From contig NZ_CP058910.1 of NCBI RefSeq assembly GCF_013415885.1, forward strand, positions 3,906,001 to 3,970,000: DNA of 64,000 nucleotides. Reading direction: 5' to 3'. Below are positions 1-58,744 of this stretch, piece after piece; within the stretch, counting starts at the first letter, position 1; each line of letters begins with the position of its first letter. The DNA is from Halosimplex rubrum. Lineage in GTDB: Archaea > Halobacteriota > Halobacteria > Halobacteriales > Haloarculaceae. The notes under the pieces were generated by a model. The model had not been told where the DNA came from. It did no database searches and saw nothing but the letters and a program-made list of their open reading frames with translations. The translations under genes were made by a program, and so were the position numbers.

Positions 1-254
1 ACGTGACGATGGAGACGGCCGCCGAGCGGGTCACCGACCCCCTCGCCGGCGTCATCCTGACGGGGATGGGCGAGGACGGCGCGGTCGGCATCCGGGCCAT
101 CCACGAGGCCGGCGGCTACACGGTCGCACAGGACGAGGCCACGTCCGCGGTCTTCGGGATGCCCAAACGAGCCATCGAGACCGGCTGCGTCGACGGCGTG
201 GCGCCGGTCAACGACGTGGCGGCGGCGATACTCGACGCATTCGAGGTGACCTAA
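1..254 (+). CDS. cheB: CheB protein-glutamate methylesterase, C-terminal end only
   Basis: This is the last 84 codons or so of a gene that begins before the window. It encodes the end of the methylesterase domain that removes methyl groups from taxis transducers. The stretch LTGMGEDGAVG carries the conserved aspartate of the CheB Ser-His-Asp catalytic site, and GMPKRAIETG matches the end of the family's domain. The serine and histidine lie outside the window. The stop codon TAA is immediately followed by the cheA ATG, so the two genes are one operon. The apparent internal GTG at position 3 is not a real start. Confidence 0.92.
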   Translation, partial: VTMETAAERVTDPLAGVILTGMGEDGAVGIRAIHEAGGYTVAQDEATSAVFGMPKRAIETGCVDGVAPVNDVAAAILDAFEVT

Positions 255-2504
255 ATGGACGACCAGTATCTAGACGCGTTTATCCGAGAGAGTGAGGAAG
301 CGATCACCGACCTGAACAACTCGCTGCTCGACCTGGAGAGCGACCCCGACGACCAGGCCGCGATGGACCAGATCTTCCGGACGGCCCACACGCTGAAGGG
401 CAACTTCGGCGCGATGGGGTTCGAGGACGCCAGCGACCTGGCCCACGCCATCGAGGACCTGCTCGACGCGATGCGCCAGAACGAGATGGCGGTCACCCCC
501 GAGCGGATGGACCTCATCTTCGCTGGCGTGGACATGATCGAAGTCATCGTCCGCGAGATCGAATCCGAGGGCGAGTCGACCACCGACACCGCCGAGATGG
601 TCGCGCAGTTGCGCGCCGTCATGGAGGAGAGCGACGCCGATTCCGAGTCCGGCGAGGCGCCCGACACGGCCGCCGATGCCGACGCAGGTAACGACGGCGC
701 GAGCGTCGACAGCGAGGCCGCCGACGGGAGCGCCGCGGACGGTGTCGACGCCGCCGCGGTCGAGGCCTTCGACGTGTCGGCCGGCGACGCCGAGGGACGG
801 GTCGTCCGCGCGGACGTGTCGGTCGGCGAGGGCGACATGCTGGGCGTCGACGCGATGCTCGCGCTCGACCGGATCACCGACGCCTTCGACCTGCTCGACG
901 CCGACCCCGACCGCGAAGCGATCGAGGACGGCGAGTTCGAGGAGACCTTCGCGCTCGCGCTCGACGCGCCCGGCGCCGACGCCGCCGCGGCGGAACTCGA
1001 CGCGATCGGCGCCGTCGAGGACGCGGACGTGGTCGACGTGACCGGCGCGCTGGGCAGCGGGGACGGAGGCGACGCGGACGACGACGGAACTATCGCGGAC
1101 GCGACCGGAGACCCCGACCCCGCGGACGACGCGCCCCAGGCGGCTTCCGGCGGCGACGACGGCGCCTCCGTCGACGAGATCAAGTCCGTCCGCGTCGACG
1201 TCGACCAGCTCGACGACCTGCACGGGCTGGTCGAGCAGCTGGTCACGAGCCGCATCAAGCTCCGTCGAGCCGTCGAGACCGACGACCTGTCCGGCGCCTC
1301 GGAGAACCTGAACGAGCTCGACAAGATCACGGCGAACCTCCAGAACACGGTGATGGACATGCGGCTCATCCCGCTGAAGAAGGTCGTCGGCAAGTTCCCG
1401 CGGATGGTCCGGGACCTCTCGCGCGAACTCGACAAGGACGTCGAGTTCACCATCGAGGGCGAGGACATCGAGCTCGACCGCACCATTCTGACGGAGATCT
1501 CGGACCCGCTGATGCACATCATCCGCAACGCGCTCGACCACGGGATCGAGGCGCCCGCCGAGCGCGAGGCCGCCGGGAAGGACCCGACCGGTCACGTCGA
1601 ACTGCGCGCCTCCCGCGAACGCGACCACGTCATCATCGAGGTCGAGGACGACGGCGCCGGCCTCGACGTGGAGGGGATCAAGCGCAAGGCCATCGAGAAG
1701 GGCGTCCGCTCCTCGGACGAGATCGAGGCGATGAGCGACTCGGCGGTCTACGACCTGGTCTTCCACCCCGGCTTCTCGACGGCCGACGAGGTGACCGACA
1801 CCAGCGGCCGCGGCGTCGGCATGGACGTGGTCCACGACACCGTCACGCAACTGGACGGCTCCGTCAGCGTCGACTCCACCCCCGGCGAGGGCACGACCGT
1901 CTCGCTGCGCCTCCCGGTGACGATGGCCATCGTCAAGGTGCTGTTCGTCGAGGTCGGCGACGAGGAGTACGGCGTCCCGCTGAAGAACGTCGACGAGATC
2001 ACCCGCACCTCCGCGGTCAAGCAGATCAACGGCAACGACGTGATCAAGCACAACGACGACATCTACCCGGTCGTCGACCTGGCCGAGCGCTTCGACGTGC
2101 CGGGCACGCACGCGACCGCCGACGCCGAGGGGGGCGAGACGGCCGCCACCGACGGCGGCGAACCGGCGGACGCGGACGGTGACGCCGTGGACGCGACCGG
2201 CGACGCCGCCGAGGTCGCGAGCGGACCGGCCGGGGACGGCAGCGCCGCGGCGGTCGCGGGCGCGGGGAGCGATGCCGCGGCGGGCGCCGTCGACGCGGCC
2301 GGCGCCGGCGGTGATGAGGGGATGCTCGTCCGCATCCGCGAGTCCGAACGACAGGTCGCGCTGCGCTGTGACGCCGTCAACAGCCAGGAGGAGGTCGTCG
2401 TCAAGCCGCTGGAGGGCATCCTCAGCGGGACGCCCGGCCTCAGCGGGACCGCCGTCCTCGGCGACGGGAACATCGTCCACATCCTCGACGTGGTGACGCT
2501 TTGA
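255..2504 (+). CDS. cheA: CheA chemotaxis histidine kinase
   Basis: The 749-residue cytoplasmic kinase phosphorylates CheY and CheB in response to transducers. The P1 Hpt domain is at residues 1-110 with the phospho-acceptor His45 in FRTAHTLKGN. An acidic linker and a P2-like region follow to about 300. The dimerisation helices come next (IKSVRVDVDQLDDL), then the ATPase domain with N box RNALDHGIEAP and G boxes DDGAGLD and GRGVGMDVV, then the CheW-like P5 domain. P5 is split by about 70 residues rich in Ala, Gly and Asp, encoded near 2095-2315. The ATG follows the cheB stop directly. The acidic linkers are longer than in bacterial CheA, as is usual for haloarchaea. Confidence 0.96.
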   Translation: MDDQYLDAFIRESEEAITDLNNSLLDLESDPDDQAAMDQIFRTAHTLKGNFGAMGFEDASDLAHAIEDLLDAMRQNEMAVTPERMDLIFAGVDMIEVIVREIESEGESTTDTAEMVAQLRAVMEESDADSESGEAPDTAADADAGNDGASVDSEAADGSAADGVDAAAVEAFDVSAGDAEGRVVRADVSVGEGDMLGVDAMLALDRITDAFDLLDADPDREAIEDGEFEETFALALDAPGADAAAAELDAIGAVEDADVVDVTGALGSGDGGDADDDGTIADATGDPDPADDAPQAASGGDDGASVDEIKSVRVDVDQLDDLHGLVEQLVTSRIKLRRAVETDDLSGASENLNELDKITANLQNTVMDMRLIPLKKVVGKFPRMVRDLSRELDKDVEFTIEGEDIELDRTILTEISDPLMHIIRNALDHGIEAPAEREAAGKDPTGHVELRASRERDHVIIEVEDDGAGLDVEGIKRKAIEKGVRSSDEIEAMSDSAVYDLVFHPGFSTADEVTDTSGRGVGMDVVHDTVTQLDGSVSVDSTPGEGTTVSLRLPVTMAIVKVLFVEVGDEEYGVPLKNVDEITRTSAVKQINGNDVIKHNDDIYPVVDLAERFDVPGTHATADAEGGETAATDGGEPADADGDAVDATGDAAEVASGPAGDGSAAAVAGAGSDAAAGAVDAAGAGGDEGMLVRIRESERQVALRCDAVNSQEEVVVKPLEGILSGTPGLSGTAVLGDGNIVHILDVVTL

Positions 2505-2608
2505 TGGCGCTGGGCCACGCAGGTACCGACGTGACCGAACGCACGGGGGACGCCGAGCCGTCGACGCGGGACCGACTCGCGACGCCGACCGACGGGAGGC
2601 GGCCATGA
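2504..2608 (+). CDS. 34-codon bridging small ORF between cheA and cheR
   Basis: This small ORF exactly fills the gap between cheA and cheR. Its ATG shares its A with the last base of the cheA stop (TGATG), and its TGA overlaps the cheR ATG (ATGA). A Shine-Dalgarno-like GGGAGG for cheR lies near its end, at about 2594-2599. The product starts MALGHAGTDVTERTGD and has no recognisable domain. It is more likely a device that carries ribosomes across the gap than a functional protein. The same arrangement recurs at 4637-4729 and 58398-58451. Whether the peptide accumulates is unknown. Confidence 0.5.
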   Translation: MALGHAGTDVTERTGDAEPSTRDRLATPTDGRRP

Positions 2609-3414
2609 GACAGGAGCGCGGTCCCGAGTTCGACGAGCTGCTGAGCTACATCGAGCGCGAACTGGACTTCGAGTCGGGCTTCTACAACGACGCCTACCTC
2701 GACCGGCGGATCAACGCCCGGATGCGCCGCACGGACGCCGACGACTACCGAACCTACCAGCGGCAACTCGAAGCCGACGAGGGCGAGCGCGAGGACCTGC
2801 TCGACTCGCTGTCGATCAACGTCACCGGCTTCTTCCGCAACCCCGAGGCCTGGGAGTCGCTGCGGAGCGTCCTGCGCGACCTCACCGCCGAGCAGCGCCG
2901 GGTCTCCGTCTGGAGCGCCCCCTGCGCGGACGGCCGGGAGCCGTACTCGATCGCCATGCTCGCGCTCGACGACGACGAGATCGACGCCCGACGGGTCGAT
3001 ATCCTCGGCACCGACATCAACCGCGACATCCTCCGGACCGCCCGCGCCGGTCGCTACGAGACCTCCCAGACGACCGATATCGCGGCGGAGCTCGAACCCC
3101 TGGACGCCTCCGAACCCTACGTCGACCGCGAGGGCGACGTGTTCACCGTCACCGATCGCGTGTCGGACCTCGTGGAGTTCGAACGCCACGACCTCATCCG
3201 CGGCCCCGAGAAGCGCGACTTCGACCTCGTGTGCTGTCGGAACCTGCTCATCTACATCGACGCCGACTACAAGGTCCCCATCTTCGAGACGATCACCGGG
3301 TCGCTGACCGACGCGGGCTATCTGATGATCGGCATGACCGAGACGCTGCCCGCGGAGTTCCGCGACCGCTACGACCCGGTCGAGAAGAAACACCGGATCT
3401 ACAGACGCGCCTGA
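2605..3414 (+). CDS. cheR: CheR chemotaxis protein methyltransferase
   Basis: The 269-residue enzyme transfers methyl groups from S-adenosylmethionine to glutamates of taxis transducers, opposing CheB. The N-terminal helical domain is followed by SINVTGFFRNPEAW, typical of CheR. The SAM-binding part has WSAPCADGREPYSIAML and the acidic GTDINRDIL. CRNLLIYI precedes the C-terminal strands. The length is normal for the family. The ATG at 2605 has GGGAGG upstream and overlaps the stop of a small bridging ORF. The stop overlaps the next gene's ATG as TGATG. Confidence 0.96.
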   Translation: MRQERGPEFDELLSYIERELDFESGFYNDAYLDRRINARMRRTDADDYRTYQRQLEADEGEREDLLDSLSINVTGFFRNPEAWESLRSVLRDLTAEQRRVSVWSAPCADGREPYSIAMLALDDDEIDARRVDILGTDINRDILRTARAGRYETSQTTDIAAELEPLDASEPYVDREGDVFTVTDRVSDLVEFERHDLIRGPEKRDFDLVCCRNLLIYIDADYKVPIFETITGSLTDAGYLMIGMTETLPAEFRDRYDPVEKKHRIYRRA

Positions 3415-4640
3415 TGTCACTCTACCAGCTCGAACGCGACGGCGACGTGCAGGAGCTCATCGGCGTGATGCGCCGCAGCGACAAGGCGGAGCTGCGCGCC
3501 CGCGCCGCGGAACTGCTCGGCAACTTCGAGGACCACGACGACCGCGCGGACGTGGTCAACGCCCTGGTGAGCGTCGCGAGCGACGACGACAGCGCCGCGG
3601 TGACCGCCGCCGCGGTCGACTCGCTCGACCAGCTGGGCGGCGACGCCATCGAGCAGCTCATCGCCGAGATGGCCGGCGTCGACATGGGCGAGGGGGCCGA
3701 CTGGATGAAGGCCCAGGCGTTCGCGAAGGCGCTCGACGCCGCCGTGCCGGAACTGCGGATGGCCGCCGCCAACGGCCTCGGTGCCGTCGAGGAGGCCGAC
3801 GCGGTCCCGAAACTCGCCGAGCGCTTCGACGACCCCGACCCGCGCGTTCGCGCCCGCGCCGCCCGCGCCTGCGGCCAGATCGCCGACTCGCGGGCGACCG
3901 ACGGGCTGGAGGGACTGCTGAGCGACGACAGCGCCACCGTCCGCCGGGAGGCCGCCGAAGCGCTGGGGTCGATCGGCAACCGTCAGGCCCTCTCCGCGCT
4001 GTTGCCGCTCTACCAGGACGGCGACGAGCGAGTGCGACGGGTGGCCGTCGGCGCGTTTGGCAACTTCCCGAACGCCCAGCCCGTCGAGTACCTCGTCGCC
4101 TCGCTGACCGACGACTCCCCGACGGTGCGCCGGACGGCCGTCTACTCGCTGGTCGAGCTGCTGGCGAACGTCCCCACGGGCCAGAGCCACGAGATCCGCG
4201 AGACCGTCGTCGAGCAGCTGAGCGAGACCGACGACCGCAACGTCGTCGTCCCGCTCGTCGAGATCCTCGAAGAGAGCCAGCAGGCCGCCCAGCAGCGAAA
4301 CACCGCGTGGCTGCTGGGCCGGGTCACGGAGGACGAGGAGCGCGACCGCGTCGTCGACGCCCTGGTCGACGCGCTGTCGGCCGACGATCAGATGGCGGGT
4401 CAGTTCGCGGCCACCAGCCTCGCCGAACTCGGCGGCGAGGCCGTCGAGGACCGACTGCTCGACCTCGTCGACGACATCGGCGCCCCCGACGAGGCGCGCG
4501 CCCAGGCCGTGTTCACGCTCGGCAAGGTCGGCGGCGAGCGCGCCCGCCAGCGCATCGACAGTCTCCTCGACGAGACCGAGTCCGAAGAGATCCGCAAACG
4601 GGCCTTCTCGGCCATCTCGAAGCTCGGTGGTCGGGGATGA
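3414..4640 (+). CDS. HEAT-repeat protein of the archaeal chemotaxis cluster
   Basis: This 408-residue protein is built almost entirely of PBS-lyase-type HEAT repeats of about 30 residues. Examples are LAERFDDPDPRVRARAARAC and LLSDDSATVRREAAEALGSI. No lyase catalytic function is implied. From published interaction work on Halobacterium salinarum, a HEAT_PBS protein encoded in the che cluster binds the CheF proteins that connect CheY to the archaellum. The position directly before cheF here fits that role. The ATG shares its A with the cheR stop. An upstream in-frame extension exists but lies inside cheR, so it is rejected. Confidence 0.88.
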   Translation: MSLYQLERDGDVQELIGVMRRSDKAELRARAAELLGNFEDHDDRADVVNALVSVASDDDSAAVTAAAVDSLDQLGGDAIEQLIAEMAGVDMGEGADWMKAQAFAKALDAAVPELRMAAANGLGAVEEADAVPKLAERFDDPDPRVRARAARACGQIADSRATDGLEGLLSDDSATVRREAAEALGSIGNRQALSALLPLYQDGDERVRRVAVGAFGNFPNAQPVEYLVASLTDDSPTVRRTAVYSLVELLANVPTGQSHEIRETVVEQLSETDDRNVVVPLVEILEESQQAAQQRNTAWLLGRVTEDEERDRVVDALVDALSADDQMAGQFAATSLAELGGEAVEDRLLDLVDDIGAPDEARAQAVFTLGKVGGERARQRIDSLLDETESEEIRKRAFSAISKLGGRG

Positions 4641-4729
4641 CCGGGGCGCGCTCGCGGACCGGTCCCGGCCGAGCGACCGGGACGGACGGTCGCCGCCGGC
4701 TGCTATCGTCGGGAGGTGACCGACCGTGA
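4637..4729 (+). CDS. 30-codon bridging small ORF between the HEAT gene and cheF
   Basis: This ORF fills the 85-base gap between two chemotaxis genes and overlaps both by four bases. Its ATGA contains the HEAT gene's TGA, and its own TGA overlaps the cheF GTG (GTGA). The strong Shine-Dalgarno sequence GGGAGGTGA for cheF lies at 4711-4719, inside its last codons. The peptide (MTGARSRTGPGRATGTDG...) is Arg/Gly-rich and basic, unlike ordinary haloarchaeal proteins. This suggests the sequence is kept for translation coupling rather than for its product. Confidence 0.5.
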   Translation: MTGARSRTGPGRATGTDGRRRLLSSGGDRP

Positions 4730-5589
4730 GCGACGAACGCGCGCTGGCGGACACCCAGGGCCGGTTCGTCCAGGTCGTCAAGAGCGGCCGGAAGGTCAAC
4801 GACCTGGAGTGGCTGAGCGGACGCGTCCTCCTGTCGAACAAGCGGCTCGTCCTCGCCAGCAACGAGGGCAAACGACAGATCGCGCTGGCGAAGGTCAGCA
4901 CCGTCAAGAACCGCAAGAACGCCAACCAGGCGATGACGGCCGTCTCGGGCTACTTCTCGGTCCAGACCGGGTCCGACGTGTTCCTGGTCGCGCCCGCCGA
5001 CATCGACGCGTTCGAGGAACACCTCTACACCGCCCTGCTGGACGGCGAGGTCGTCCTCGTCAAACACCCCGCGGTCGAGGGCGGCGTCGTCCGGGACATC
5101 GAGTGGGAGAAAGGGCGGATCAACATCGAATCCGACGTGGTCGGGCTGGGCGTCGCCAGCGGTCAGTTCGTCGAGGTCGAGCTGGAGGACGTGGGCGCCG
5201 TCGACGCCAGAGAGGGGACCGTCCGCGGCGACGAGCGCCGCGTCCTCGAAGTCGAACACACCGACGAGGAGGGGACCAGCGTCCAGACGTACATCTCGGG
5301 GACGAGCCGGCACGTCTCCATCCTCGAATCGCTCGTCCGGCAGGGCGAGCTCCAGAACGCGACCGACGCCGACCTCGACCAGACGGAGATGGAGGTCCTG
5401 ATGGCACTGTACTCGGGCGTCTCGCCGTTCGAAATCCCCGAGTTCGTCGGCATGGACGTCGAGGCGGTCGAGGCCATCTTCGACCGCCTCGTCGAGGAGG
5501 GCATCCTCCGCGAGAAGCGCGTCCGCCGCGACGTGCGCCTCAAAGCCCGCGGGCGCAACATCGCCAGCGACGTGATCGGCGACCAGTAG
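4726..5589 (+). CDS. cheF: CheF, archaeal taxis protein linking CheY to the archaellum
   Basis: The 287-residue protein matches the CheF family (formerly DUF439), found only with archaeal chemotaxis systems. In Halobacterium CheF binds CheY, CheD and archaellum accessory proteins and is needed for motor switching. The N-terminal half (SGRVLLSNKRLVLASNEGKR) looks like a PH-like beta domain. The C-terminal part (PFEIPEFVGMDVEAVEAIFD) looks like a helical winged-helix region. It starts at GTG 4726, preceded by GGGAGGTGA at good spacing. It is the last gene of the operon, with the next gene on the opposite strand. Confidence 0.9.
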   Translation: MSDERALADTQGRFVQVVKSGRKVNDLEWLSGRVLLSNKRLVLASNEGKRQIALAKVSTVKNRKNANQAMTAVSGYFSVQTGSDVFLVAPADIDAFEEHLYTALLDGEVVLVKHPAVEGGVVRDIEWEKGRINIESDVVGLGVASGQFVEVELEDVGAVDAREGTVRGDERRVLEVEHTDEEGTSVQTYISGTSRHVSILESLVRQGELQNATDADLDQTEMEVLMALYSGVSPFEIPEFVGMDVEAVEAIFDRLVEEGILREKRVRRDVRLKARGRNIASDVIGDQ

Positions 5590-6369: not shown

Positions 6370-6454
6370 TGCGAGGGGTGGGATTCGAACCCACGGACCC
6401 CTTCGGGAGCGGGTCTTAAGCCCGCCGCCTTTGGCCTAGCTCAGCCACCCTCGC
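6370..6454 (-). tRNA. tRNA-Leu, anticodon TAA
   Basis: On the minus strand the sequence folds as acceptor GCGAGGG paired with CCCTCGC. It has a D arm in GCTGAGCTAGGCCAAAGGC and an anticodon stem GCGGG/CCCGC closing the loop CTTAAGA (anticodon TAA). The long variable arm TCCCGAAGGGGTCC is typical of leucine tRNAs, and the T arm is GTGGGTTCGAATCCCAC. The discriminator base is A, and the CCA end is not encoded. All stems pair, so this copy looks functional. Confidence 0.95.
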
Positions 6455-6620: not shown

Positions 6621-6683
6621 TAATCCGTTGAGCGAACGCGAAGCGTTCGCGAAGGTCGAAAGACGCCGCAGGCGTCTTTCGGA

Positions 6684-6812
6684 ATTCGAACCCACGGACC
6701 CCTTCGGGAGCGGGTCTTAAGCCCGCCGACGGACTCGCTTCGCTCGCCTGTCGAGCCCTCGCTCGCACGGCTCGCGAGGACGCCGCCTTTGGCCTAGCTC
6801 AGCCACCCTCGC
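6684..6812 (-). pseudogene. Broken tRNA-Leu(TAA) copy with a 57-bp insertion
   Basis: The minus strand repeats the neighbouring tRNA-Leu from the acceptor 5' strand through the D arm, anticodon loop (CTTAAGA) and variable arm to the T loop. Two defects are visible. A 57-base GC-rich insert (6728-6784, containing CGAGCGAAGCGAG) splits it just before the anticodon stem. The 3' half of the T stem and the acceptor are replaced by a hairpin (GAAAGACGCC...GGCGTCTTTC). The insertion is not at the usual 37/38 intron site and the acceptor is lost, so I call it a pseudogene. Confidence 0.75.
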
Positions 6813-6927
6813 GCGTTCGTCCGTCGCCGCTCCGCCGGAATAGCGGTTACGGTCCGGCCGCGCGGCTCGCGAGTCGGCGAGCGAGCGGCGAAGAGATAGA
6901 GAGCGTTCGGAGGGCGCGCCAGCGGAG
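6813..6927. other. Gene-free stretch beside the tRNA locus
   Basis: Together with 6455-6683 this makes a gene-poor stretch of about 470 bases around the broken tRNA. It holds only short palindromes such as AACGCGAAGCGTT near 6646. I see no convincing ORF with haloarchaeal amino-acid composition, and no intact RNA gene. Confidence 0.5.
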
Positions 6928-57597: not shown

Positions 57598-58401
57598 TCA
57601 CTCGAAGGCGGCGGCGAGGACGGTGTCGTAGGCGTGTTCGTAGGCGTCGGCGACGGCCGCGGGGTCGCCGCGTTCGCCCTTCGACAGCGGCGGGAGTCGG
57701 GCATCGGCTTTCGGTTCGATCAGGTCGGTCACGTCGTCGACGCGCTCCTCCAGTTGGCCGGCGTCGGGGCCGCCGCTGGCGATTGCACACCCCTTCGCGT
57801 AGCGAGCGCCGTCGTAGACGCGGACCCGGCCCGGCTCGACCACGGCGACGGCGTCGGGGTCGATCTCCCGGAACGGACGGGCCACGTCGGCGTAGGACTC
57901 GACGACGGCGCGCTCGGTCGCCTCGATCTCTCCCAGCAGCGACCGCTGTTCGGCGAGATGGCGGTCGGTCATCTCCTCGTTGAACCCCTCGACCGAGGAG
58001 ACGCGCGGCGCGTCGGCCAGTGGGAGCGACTCCAGGACCGACTCCGGGAGGTCGACCGTGCCGTTGACGACGAACGATTCGCCGACGCGGTCGACGAGGA
58101 ACTCCCGGTCGTCTTTCCCCAGCAGGCCGGTCCCGCCGCCCGGGCTGGGTCGCCAGAGTCGGTGGACGGCGTTGACGTCCTCGGGCGTCACATCGGCGGG
58201 GCTGGCGGCGGCGAGCTTGCGAGCGTCCTTGCCGTAGAGACGGCCGTCGGCGGTCGCGTTCAGGAAGTCGTCGTGGTCGAACCAGTAGTCGTTGCCGGCG
58301 CGGGGCTTGAACCCCACGGCGCCGGTCCGGGCGACCAGTCCCACCGAGAAGGTGGTCTTGCCGGCGTCGACGCGCGACCCCCCGGCGACGAGCAGCCTCA
58401 T
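57598..58401 (-). CDS. Predicted P-loop ATPase
   Basis: The 267-residue protein begins MRLLVAGGSRVDAGKTTFSV, a Walker A of the SIMIBI/MinD-like or dethiobiotin-synthetase-like type. GFKPRAGNDYWFDHDDFLNA follows, resembling the substrate segment of that group. The rest is alpha/beta and acidic. Uncharacterised archaeal ATPases of this kind are known, and no reaction can be named. The start overlaps the stop of a 17-codon bridging ORF, with purine-rich GGGAGGGGGAG just before. Confidence 0.82.
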   Translation of the reverse strand: MRLLVAGGSRVDAGKTTFSVGLVARTGAVGFKPRAGNDYWFDHDDFLNATADGRLYGKDARKLAAASPADVTPEDVNAVHRLWRPSPGGGTGLLGKDDREFLVDRVGESFVVNGTVDLPESVLESLPLADAPRVSSVEGFNEEMTDRHLAEQRSLLGEIEATERAVVESYADVARPFREIDPDAVAVVEPGRVRVYDGARYAKGCAIASGGPDAGQLEERVDDVTDLIEPKADARLPPLSKGERGDPAAVADAYEHAYDTVLAAAFE

Positions 58402-58451
58402 CGGTCGCGCTCCCCCTCCCCCTCCCGGTCTCGTCCCCGACCGCGCGTCAT
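58398..58451 (-). CDS. 17-codon bridging small ORF between two genes
   Basis: This ORF (MTRGRGRDREGEGERDR) fills the 46-base gap between the DUF5827-like gene and the ATPase gene, and overlaps both as ATGA. Its second half is the purine-rich Shine-Dalgarno region of the ATPase gene. The encoded peptide is almost wholly Arg/Gly/Glu, so its sequence is dictated by the ribosome-binding tract. The role is probably coupling. It is the third bridge of this form in the window. Confidence 0.5.
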   Translation of the reverse strand: MTRGRGRDREGEGERDR

Positions 58452-58744
58452 TGCTCGGCGGTGCCGTCGGCGTCGACGCCCGGCGCGAGCCCGTAGTAGC
58501 CCGGTTCGCCGTCGGCCTCGGGTTCGGCGAAGACGAACTGCTCGCTGTGGCCCATCATCCACGGAATCGCCCAGTCCAGCAGGACGTTCTCCGTCTCGAT
58601 GTCCAGCTCGGCCTCGGCGTCGAGCCCCTGCAACAGACGGCCGACCTCGTAGATGGTGTAGAGTTGGTCGGCGTCGAGGATCTCCGCCGGTTCGTGGAAC
58701 TCCAGCGGTCGCAGGTCGTCGAAGTCGGCTTTCGGTTGTGGCAT
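58448..58744 (-). CDS. Haloarchaeal conserved protein, DUF5827-like
   Basis: The 98-residue acidic protein begins MPQPKADFDDLRPLEFHEPA and continues ILDADQLYTIYEVGRLLQGL, with a conserved IPWMMGHSEQFVFAEP segment. I remember similar haloarchaeal proteins as DUF5827, tentatively. The function is unknown. The ATG at 58744 is the only sensible start. It is probably co-transcribed with the downstream P-loop ATPase, as the bridging ORF implies. Confidence 0.75.
   Translation of the reverse strand: MPQPKADFDDLRPLEFHEPAEILDADQLYTIYEVGRLLQGLDAEAELDIETENVLLDWAIPWMMGHSEQFVFAEPEADGEPGYYGLAPGVDADGTAEQ

Follow-up and report, generated by a model that had tools for sequence, protein, structure and literature searches.

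Short bridging reading frames as probable coupling cistrons in a chemotaxis operon of Halosimplex rubrum

The chemotaxis operon and its bridged gaps

The window analysed here is a stretch of 64,000 nucleotides (nt) from the haloarchaeon Halosimplex rubrum (contig NZ_CP058910.1, positions 3,906,001 to 3,970,000). It opens inside cheB, and Pfam matches together with the sequence give the order cheB-cheA-cheR-HEAT-cheF for the chemotaxis operon found there. The gap of 100 nt between cheA and cheR and the gap of 85 nt between the HEAT-repeat gene and cheF are each spanned fully by one short open reading frame (ORF). These two mini-ORFs, of 34 and 30 amino acids (aa), are probably coupling cistrons that relay termination-reinitiation from one gene to the next. 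The features concerned are listed below by window position.

3 to 254, plus strand: 3' part of cheB (Pfam CheB_methylest); a gene call on the upstream DNA puts the gene start 868 nt upstream of the window
255 to 2504, plus strand: cheA (Pfam HATPase_c, CheW, Hpt, P2, H-kinase_dim), stop TGA at 2502-2504
2504 to 2608, plus strand: mini-ORF 1, 34 aa, leading from cheA to cheR, ATG at 2504-2506, TGA at 2606-2608
2595 to 2599, plus strand: Shine-Dalgarno (SD) motif GGAGG for cheR, within mini-ORF 1, read from the sequence; SD-like motifs also in relatives
2605 to 3414, plus strand: cheR (Pfam CheR, CheR_N), start ATG at 2605
3414 to 4640, plus strand: HEAT-repeat gene (Pfam HEAT_2), stop at 4638-4640
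4637 to 4729, plus strand: mini-ORF 2, 30 aa, leading from the HEAT gene to cheF, ATG at 4637, TGA at 4727-4729
4712 to 4719, plus strand: SD motif GGAGGTGA for cheF, within mini-ORF 2, read from the sequence; SD-like motifs also in relatives
4726 to 5589, plus strand: cheF (Pfam CheF-arch, E value 3e-70), start GTG at 4726

A preliminary description of this DNA had proposed that ORFs at 2504-2608 and 4637-4729 touch both of their neighbours and hold the SD of the next gene. Both claims were borne out when the exact starts, stops and motifs (GGAGG and GGAGGTGA) were read. Mini-ORF 1 shows a -1 overlap with cheA, which ends in TTTGATG, and a -4 overlap with cheR (ATGA), and mini-ORF 2 shows -4 overlaps with both the HEAT gene (ending in GGATGA) and cheF (GTGA). 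All four ends thus lie at -1 or -4, within the spacing of a termination-reinitiation pair (-4, -1 or up to about 10 nt). Neither mini-ORF has a Pfam match.

The remaining junctions are tight in all seven Halosimplex species of the genus comparison, in which the relatives include H. pelagicum, H. carlsbadense, H. salinum and H. aquaticum. The cheA start abuts the cheB stop at 0 nt (TAAATG), and cheR and the HEAT gene overlap by -1 (TGATG). From cheB to cheF, every base lies within a possible reading chain.

Conservation within Halosimplex

The two gaps vary considerably in length within the genus. The cheA-cheR gap measures 28, 43, 63, 100 (three species) and 124 nt, and the HEAT-cheF gap 22, 49 (three species), 61 and 85 (two species) nt. 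One ORF bridges HEAT-cheF exactly in all seven species and cheA-cheR in six. In the seventh, H. aquaticum (63 nt), two mini-ORFs stand in series: MSAATERST and its stop, then GTGA, then VIDRRDTAGGRRE with a stop closing at ATGA. When four bridged junctions of the genus are taken together, 11 of 12 length changes are in phase (P ~5e-5), and the exception is the junction bridged by the two-ORF series. Two of these four junctions were chosen for their bridge in H. rubrum, a choice that leaves the other species unbiased.

With the ends fixed, the gap interior shuffled and the frame left free, the two che gaps were bridged in 13% and 28% of trials; at such chance levels (0.13 and 0.28), a single genome is weak evidence. 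Conservation of the che bridges across species argues strongly for more than chance. The preliminary description had suggested looking in relatives for overlaps kept despite altered peptides, and this pattern was indeed found, as both gaps are bridged in all seven species at varied lengths and the cheA-cheR bridge peptides of other haloarchaea are unrelated.

Comparison across haloarchaea

The wider set comprised 80 loci, the H. rubrum genome and two further Halosimplex genomes, and a junction was called gapped at a gap of at least 12 nt. Nearly all cheA-cheR junctions without a gap are direct overlaps (mostly ATGA) or abut within a few bases, so that coupling looks like the conserved state. 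Exact bridging was found in 13 of the 20 gapped junctions, compared with 2.8 expected from shuffled gaps. Under a relaxed rule (mini-ORF start at -4 to +1, stop at -4 to +4) the count rises to 16/20 against 3.1 expected, and to 17/20 against 3.5 when two-ORF chains are included. Outside Halosimplex, 7 of 13 are bridged exactly (1.95 expected, P 4e-4) and 10 of 13 under the relaxed rule (2.2 expected, P 1.5e-7). The conservation within the genus, taken with the excess over shuffles, suggests that the arrangement is kept by selection.

Several observations weigh against reading the mini-ORFs as coupling cistrons. The relaxed rule was fixed after the data had been seen, and related species share ancestry, so that their sequences are not independent; the exact counts should therefore carry the weight. 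Three gapped cheA-cheR junctions, two in Halorhabdus and one in Halorientalis salina, have no bridge under the definitions used; in Halorientalis salina the frame, read by eye, extends about 11 nt into cheR. The HEAT-cheF junction outside Halosimplex is bridged exactly in 7/39 loci (3.8 expected), which is near chance, and many of these gaps hold AT-rich promoter-like boxes. The che mini-ORFs also show some peptide constraint, with a ratio of nonsynonymous to synonymous change (pN/pS) of about 0.4-0.9, based on very few changes, compared with about 0.2 in cheR.

The bridged junctions outside Halosimplex include two from metagenome-assembled haloarchaea with cheA-cheR gaps of 214 nt (L134) and 349 nt (L150). 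There, ORFs of about 72 and 117 aa form the bridges, and SSDSVRGA repeats occur in the longer one.

Frequency of bridged gaps in the genome

Genome statistics covered 1.25 Mb (28%) of the 4.48-Mb single-contig H. rubrum genome and used our own gene caller (1197 genes, 715 pairs). With the two che junctions excluded, 18 of 239 gaps of 12-110 nt are bridged, compared with 8.1 expected (P 0.002), an approximately two-fold excess, and 11 of 92 gaps lacking an AT-rich hexamer are bridged (3.8 expected). Among other codirectional junctions of 12-150 nt in an initial 0.45-Mb sample of this genome, 7/126 are exact (3.95 expected), and the other junctions of this kind flanking che loci are at chance level (2/101, 1.57 expected).

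Since the genome-wide excess is small, bridging is a minority device, selective for particular junctions rather than general, and perhaps half of the bridged gaps are accidental. A genome-wide bridging design was rejected, as the excess is small overall and absent near the che loci. The frequency check against shuffled gaps that the preliminary description had called for thus returned an excess, but a weak one.

At 67% GC, stop codons are rare, TGA stops and ATGA or GTGA starts are common, and bridges could arise by accident. The genome-wide excess of only about two-fold, the chance-level count near che loci and the bridge at an ABC transporter gap that was lost in most relatives (exact in 2/8) would all fit such an origin. 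The che bridges, however, stay in phase through repeated length changes in all seven species, and cheA-cheR bridges turn up in further genera at well above the shuffled frequency, so that chance is disfavoured and has a low probability.

Nature of the mini-ORFs

The codon score per codon in Halosimplex is -0.03 for the cheA-cheR mini-ORFs and -0.26 for the HEAT-cheF mini-ORFs, compared with +0.41 for genes. As this codon usage is non-coding-like, it is the frame that seems to matter and not the peptide; frame and ends are kept, the peptide mostly not. The possibility that the mini-ORFs are genes for functional micropeptides draws on pN being lower than pS and on similar peptide starts in four of the seven species. 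It is nonetheless very improbable, given lengths that span 9-42 aa in Halosimplex, the non-coding codon usage, the lack of a family match and the unrelated peptides in other genera. The coding-like codon usage and conserved peptide that mark a small protein gene are not seen.

In all seven Halosimplex species, cheA ends in the rare leucine codon CTT (2.8% of leucine codons; window 2499-2504) before TGA or TAA, and the cheR frame stays open over the gap. This resembles a site for programmed +1 frameshifting of the RF2 type at CTT-TGA/TAA, which would yield a CheA-CheR fusion. The cheA-cheR junction fits such a frameshift in six species and fails in H. aquaticum, where cheR lies outside the +1 frame. 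It fails as well in other genera, where cheA ends in CTG or CTA and stops often interrupt that frame. Within the gap, the cheR frame has a non-coding score (-0.37), and at cheF the corresponding frame is closed in all seven species. The probability of a frameshift is therefore close to nil.

The mini-ORF 1 region folds no more stably than shuffled sequences do (z 1.2), and the mini-ORF 2 region a little more stably (z -2.1). There is thus no need to invoke a conserved RNA element. Rfam gave no match in the che gaps. An origin of the che gaps from a repeat or mobile element was considered and rejected, as they are single-copy in the genome with only short partial matches elsewhere.

Proposed mechanism

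The reading of the mini-ORFs as coupling cistrons that relay termination-reinitiation is given a probability of roughly 80%, on the strength of sequence comparison. A ribosome ending cheA or the HEAT gene would reinitiate at the ATG with which the mini-ORF overlaps that gene, translate its 30-34 codons and stop at the TGA overlapping the next start. It would then reinitiate at cheR or cheF, aided by the SD within the mini-ORF. The gap of 85-100 nt would become two short overlaps, and cheB-cheA-cheR-HEAT-cheF could be translated as one chain. Selection would preserve a stop-free frame with an overlap at each end, irrespective of the peptide. We infer that ribosomes initiate on the mini-ORFs and are transferred to the next gene, and that coupling is the benefit selected for. 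The continuous ribosome traffic along the operon postulated in the preliminary description appears well supported by the comparison.

In Haloferax volcanii, reinitiation drops substantially at 13-14 nt and is absent at 22-23 nt (PMC10666635). Given a limit of about 20 nt, a gap of 85-100 nt would uncouple cheR and cheF, and the bridges gain a purpose. In haloarchaeal 5'-untranslated regions, the SD is not a driver of de novo initiation (PMC6728339). In E. coli, coupling is already achieved with the final 15 nt of an upstream frame. The benefit of che coupling may be robustness of signalling, by analogy with what is argued for E. coli (PMC2716512).

The mini-ORFs might, instead of or besides supplying ribosomes, keep the nascent mRNA covered with ribosomes and prevent FttA-dependent polarity in the gap. 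Archaeal polarity, likely via FttA, has been described (PMC12548453), and a bridge would serve this end too. It would not require the overlap at the next start to be exactly -1 or -4, yet exactly that is kept, and long untranslated transcripts in H. volcanii, unlike in E. coli, are reported not to be unstable (PMC10666635). This role is considered unlikely.

A limit of about 20 nt implies that archaeal genes 50-120 nt apart are uncoupled. If the coupling-cistron reading is true, bridges would evade this limit without a new mechanism, the annotation of operons would be altered, and there would be an explanation for a class of small ORFs that may be taken for proteins in ribosome profiling.

Other bridged junctions

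Seven further bridged gaps of H. rubrum were traced through the genus. One lies in the window and was identified from the sequence and the genus comparison.

58398 to 58451, minus strand: mini-ORF 3, 17 aa, leading from the DUF5827 gene to the next gene
58448 to 58744, minus strand: DUF5827 gene (Pfam), upstream of mini-ORF 3
57598 to 58401, minus strand: gene of 267 aa without a Pfam match, downstream of mini-ORF 3

This junction is bridged in all six gapped Halosimplex species (16-52 nt, in phase) and is a direct ATGA in two others. A bridge is present at livH-livM in two species, with a direct TGATG in four, and at rpl4-rpl23 in two species, with a direct ATGA in six. At these three junctions gapped species are bridged and sister species overlap directly, and the same junction with and without a bridge offers natural pairs for experiments. 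The leucyl-tRNA synthetase junction shows relaxed bridging in 6/8. The outcome was mixed across the genus for the junction before an ethylbenzene-dehydrogenase-type gene. The bridge of the ABC transporter gap is absent in most relatives, relatives lack a similarly short gap at the DnaJ junction, and for the gene after another bridged gap the homologue search gave a close match in one relative only.

The insert before the ethylbenzene-dehydrogenase-type gene recurs in relatives (L246, L251, L252, L253) with inverted repeats and GGAGGTGTTCGA, and possibly represents a second family of junction inserts.

Elements inserted at start/stop overlaps

Three 67-nt repeats, listed for rpl4-rpl23, rpl2-rps19 and trpB-trpA, occur in the H. 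rubrum genome at about 2561203 (L230:11203-11269), 2562241 (L230:12241-12307) and 1878893 (L267:1494-1560). They lie inside start/stop overlaps, which they bridge with mini-ORFs of similar peptides. The elements measure about 67 nt counting the overlaps and have two predicted hairpins, the second with the SD in GGAGGTGAG or AGAGGTGAG; until a ribosome passed, this hairpin would keep the SD hidden. At rpl4-rpl23 the insert (58 nt) is identical in two species though the flanks differ, and the rpl2-rps19 element is present in H. rubrum and one other species. Sister species have empty junctions at both sites, directly overlapping or abutting. A model of the element found no further convincing copy in the 1.25 Mb of H. 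rubrum and one partial copy in another species, and Rfam holds no matching family. The che gaps are not members of this family.

A tentative explanation, somewhat less than evenly probable, is that haloarchaea generally tolerate DNA inserted at start/stop overlaps, and that only inserts re-creating both overlaps through a bridging mini-ORF would persist. Some would stem from the 67-nt family at rpl4-rpl23, rpl2-rps19 and trpB-trpA, similar to mycobacterial interspersed repetitive units (MIRUs), in which the second hairpin, holding the SD, would let only ribosomes in the act of translating open the next gene. The bridges of the che operon would then be inserts of this kind that are old and have diverged.

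A further observation in the window

The tRNA-Leu (TAA) sequence at 6370-6454 recurs at 6660-6820 as an interrupted copy, into which extra sequence is inserted close to the anticodon. Of the two, ARAGORN reports the intact gene only, and the interrupted copy could be intron-bearing or broken.

Comparison with known systems

MIRUs (Supply 1997, as described in PMC12548453) are short junction inserts with an ORF overlapping the neighbouring start, by which expression is preserved. The che gaps and the 67-nt elements likewise have an internal ORF, here overlapping both neighbours. Unlike a repeat with copies at several junctions, the che bridges are single-copy and belong to no repeat family; the 67-nt elements, known from only three loci, come closer than the che bridges in their arrangement.

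The Salmonella mgtQ, an intergenic ORF of 8 aa that promotes mgtB translation (PMC8092293), shares with the che mini-ORFs a short frame between operon genes that couples translation of the second gene. Unlike them, it starts 51 nt past the upstream stop without overlap and works via rearrangement of RNA stem-loops. Leader cistrons and mycobacterial upstream ORFs (PMC12548453) are short as well, and deliver ribosomes to an overlapping start irrespective of their product; they lie upstream of a gene, whereas the che mini-ORFs also overlap the stop of the upstream gene. In the che operons of E. coli, adjacent genes are also translationally coupled, which is argued to give robust signalling; these are other gene pairs, and the accessible part of PMC2716512 describes no bridging ORF.

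Each mini-ORF end resembles published termination-reinitiation coupling (PMC6728339, PMC10666635) in its usual -1 or -4 overlap, and an SD stands shortly before the next start. In the available text of these papers, gaps of this length count as uncoupled, whereas here a non-coding-like mini-ORF fills the gap and coupling would be relayed twice. Judged by sequence, the arrangement is thus a variant of known termination-reinitiation coupling, and its new part is the relay through a gap-filling mini-ORF.

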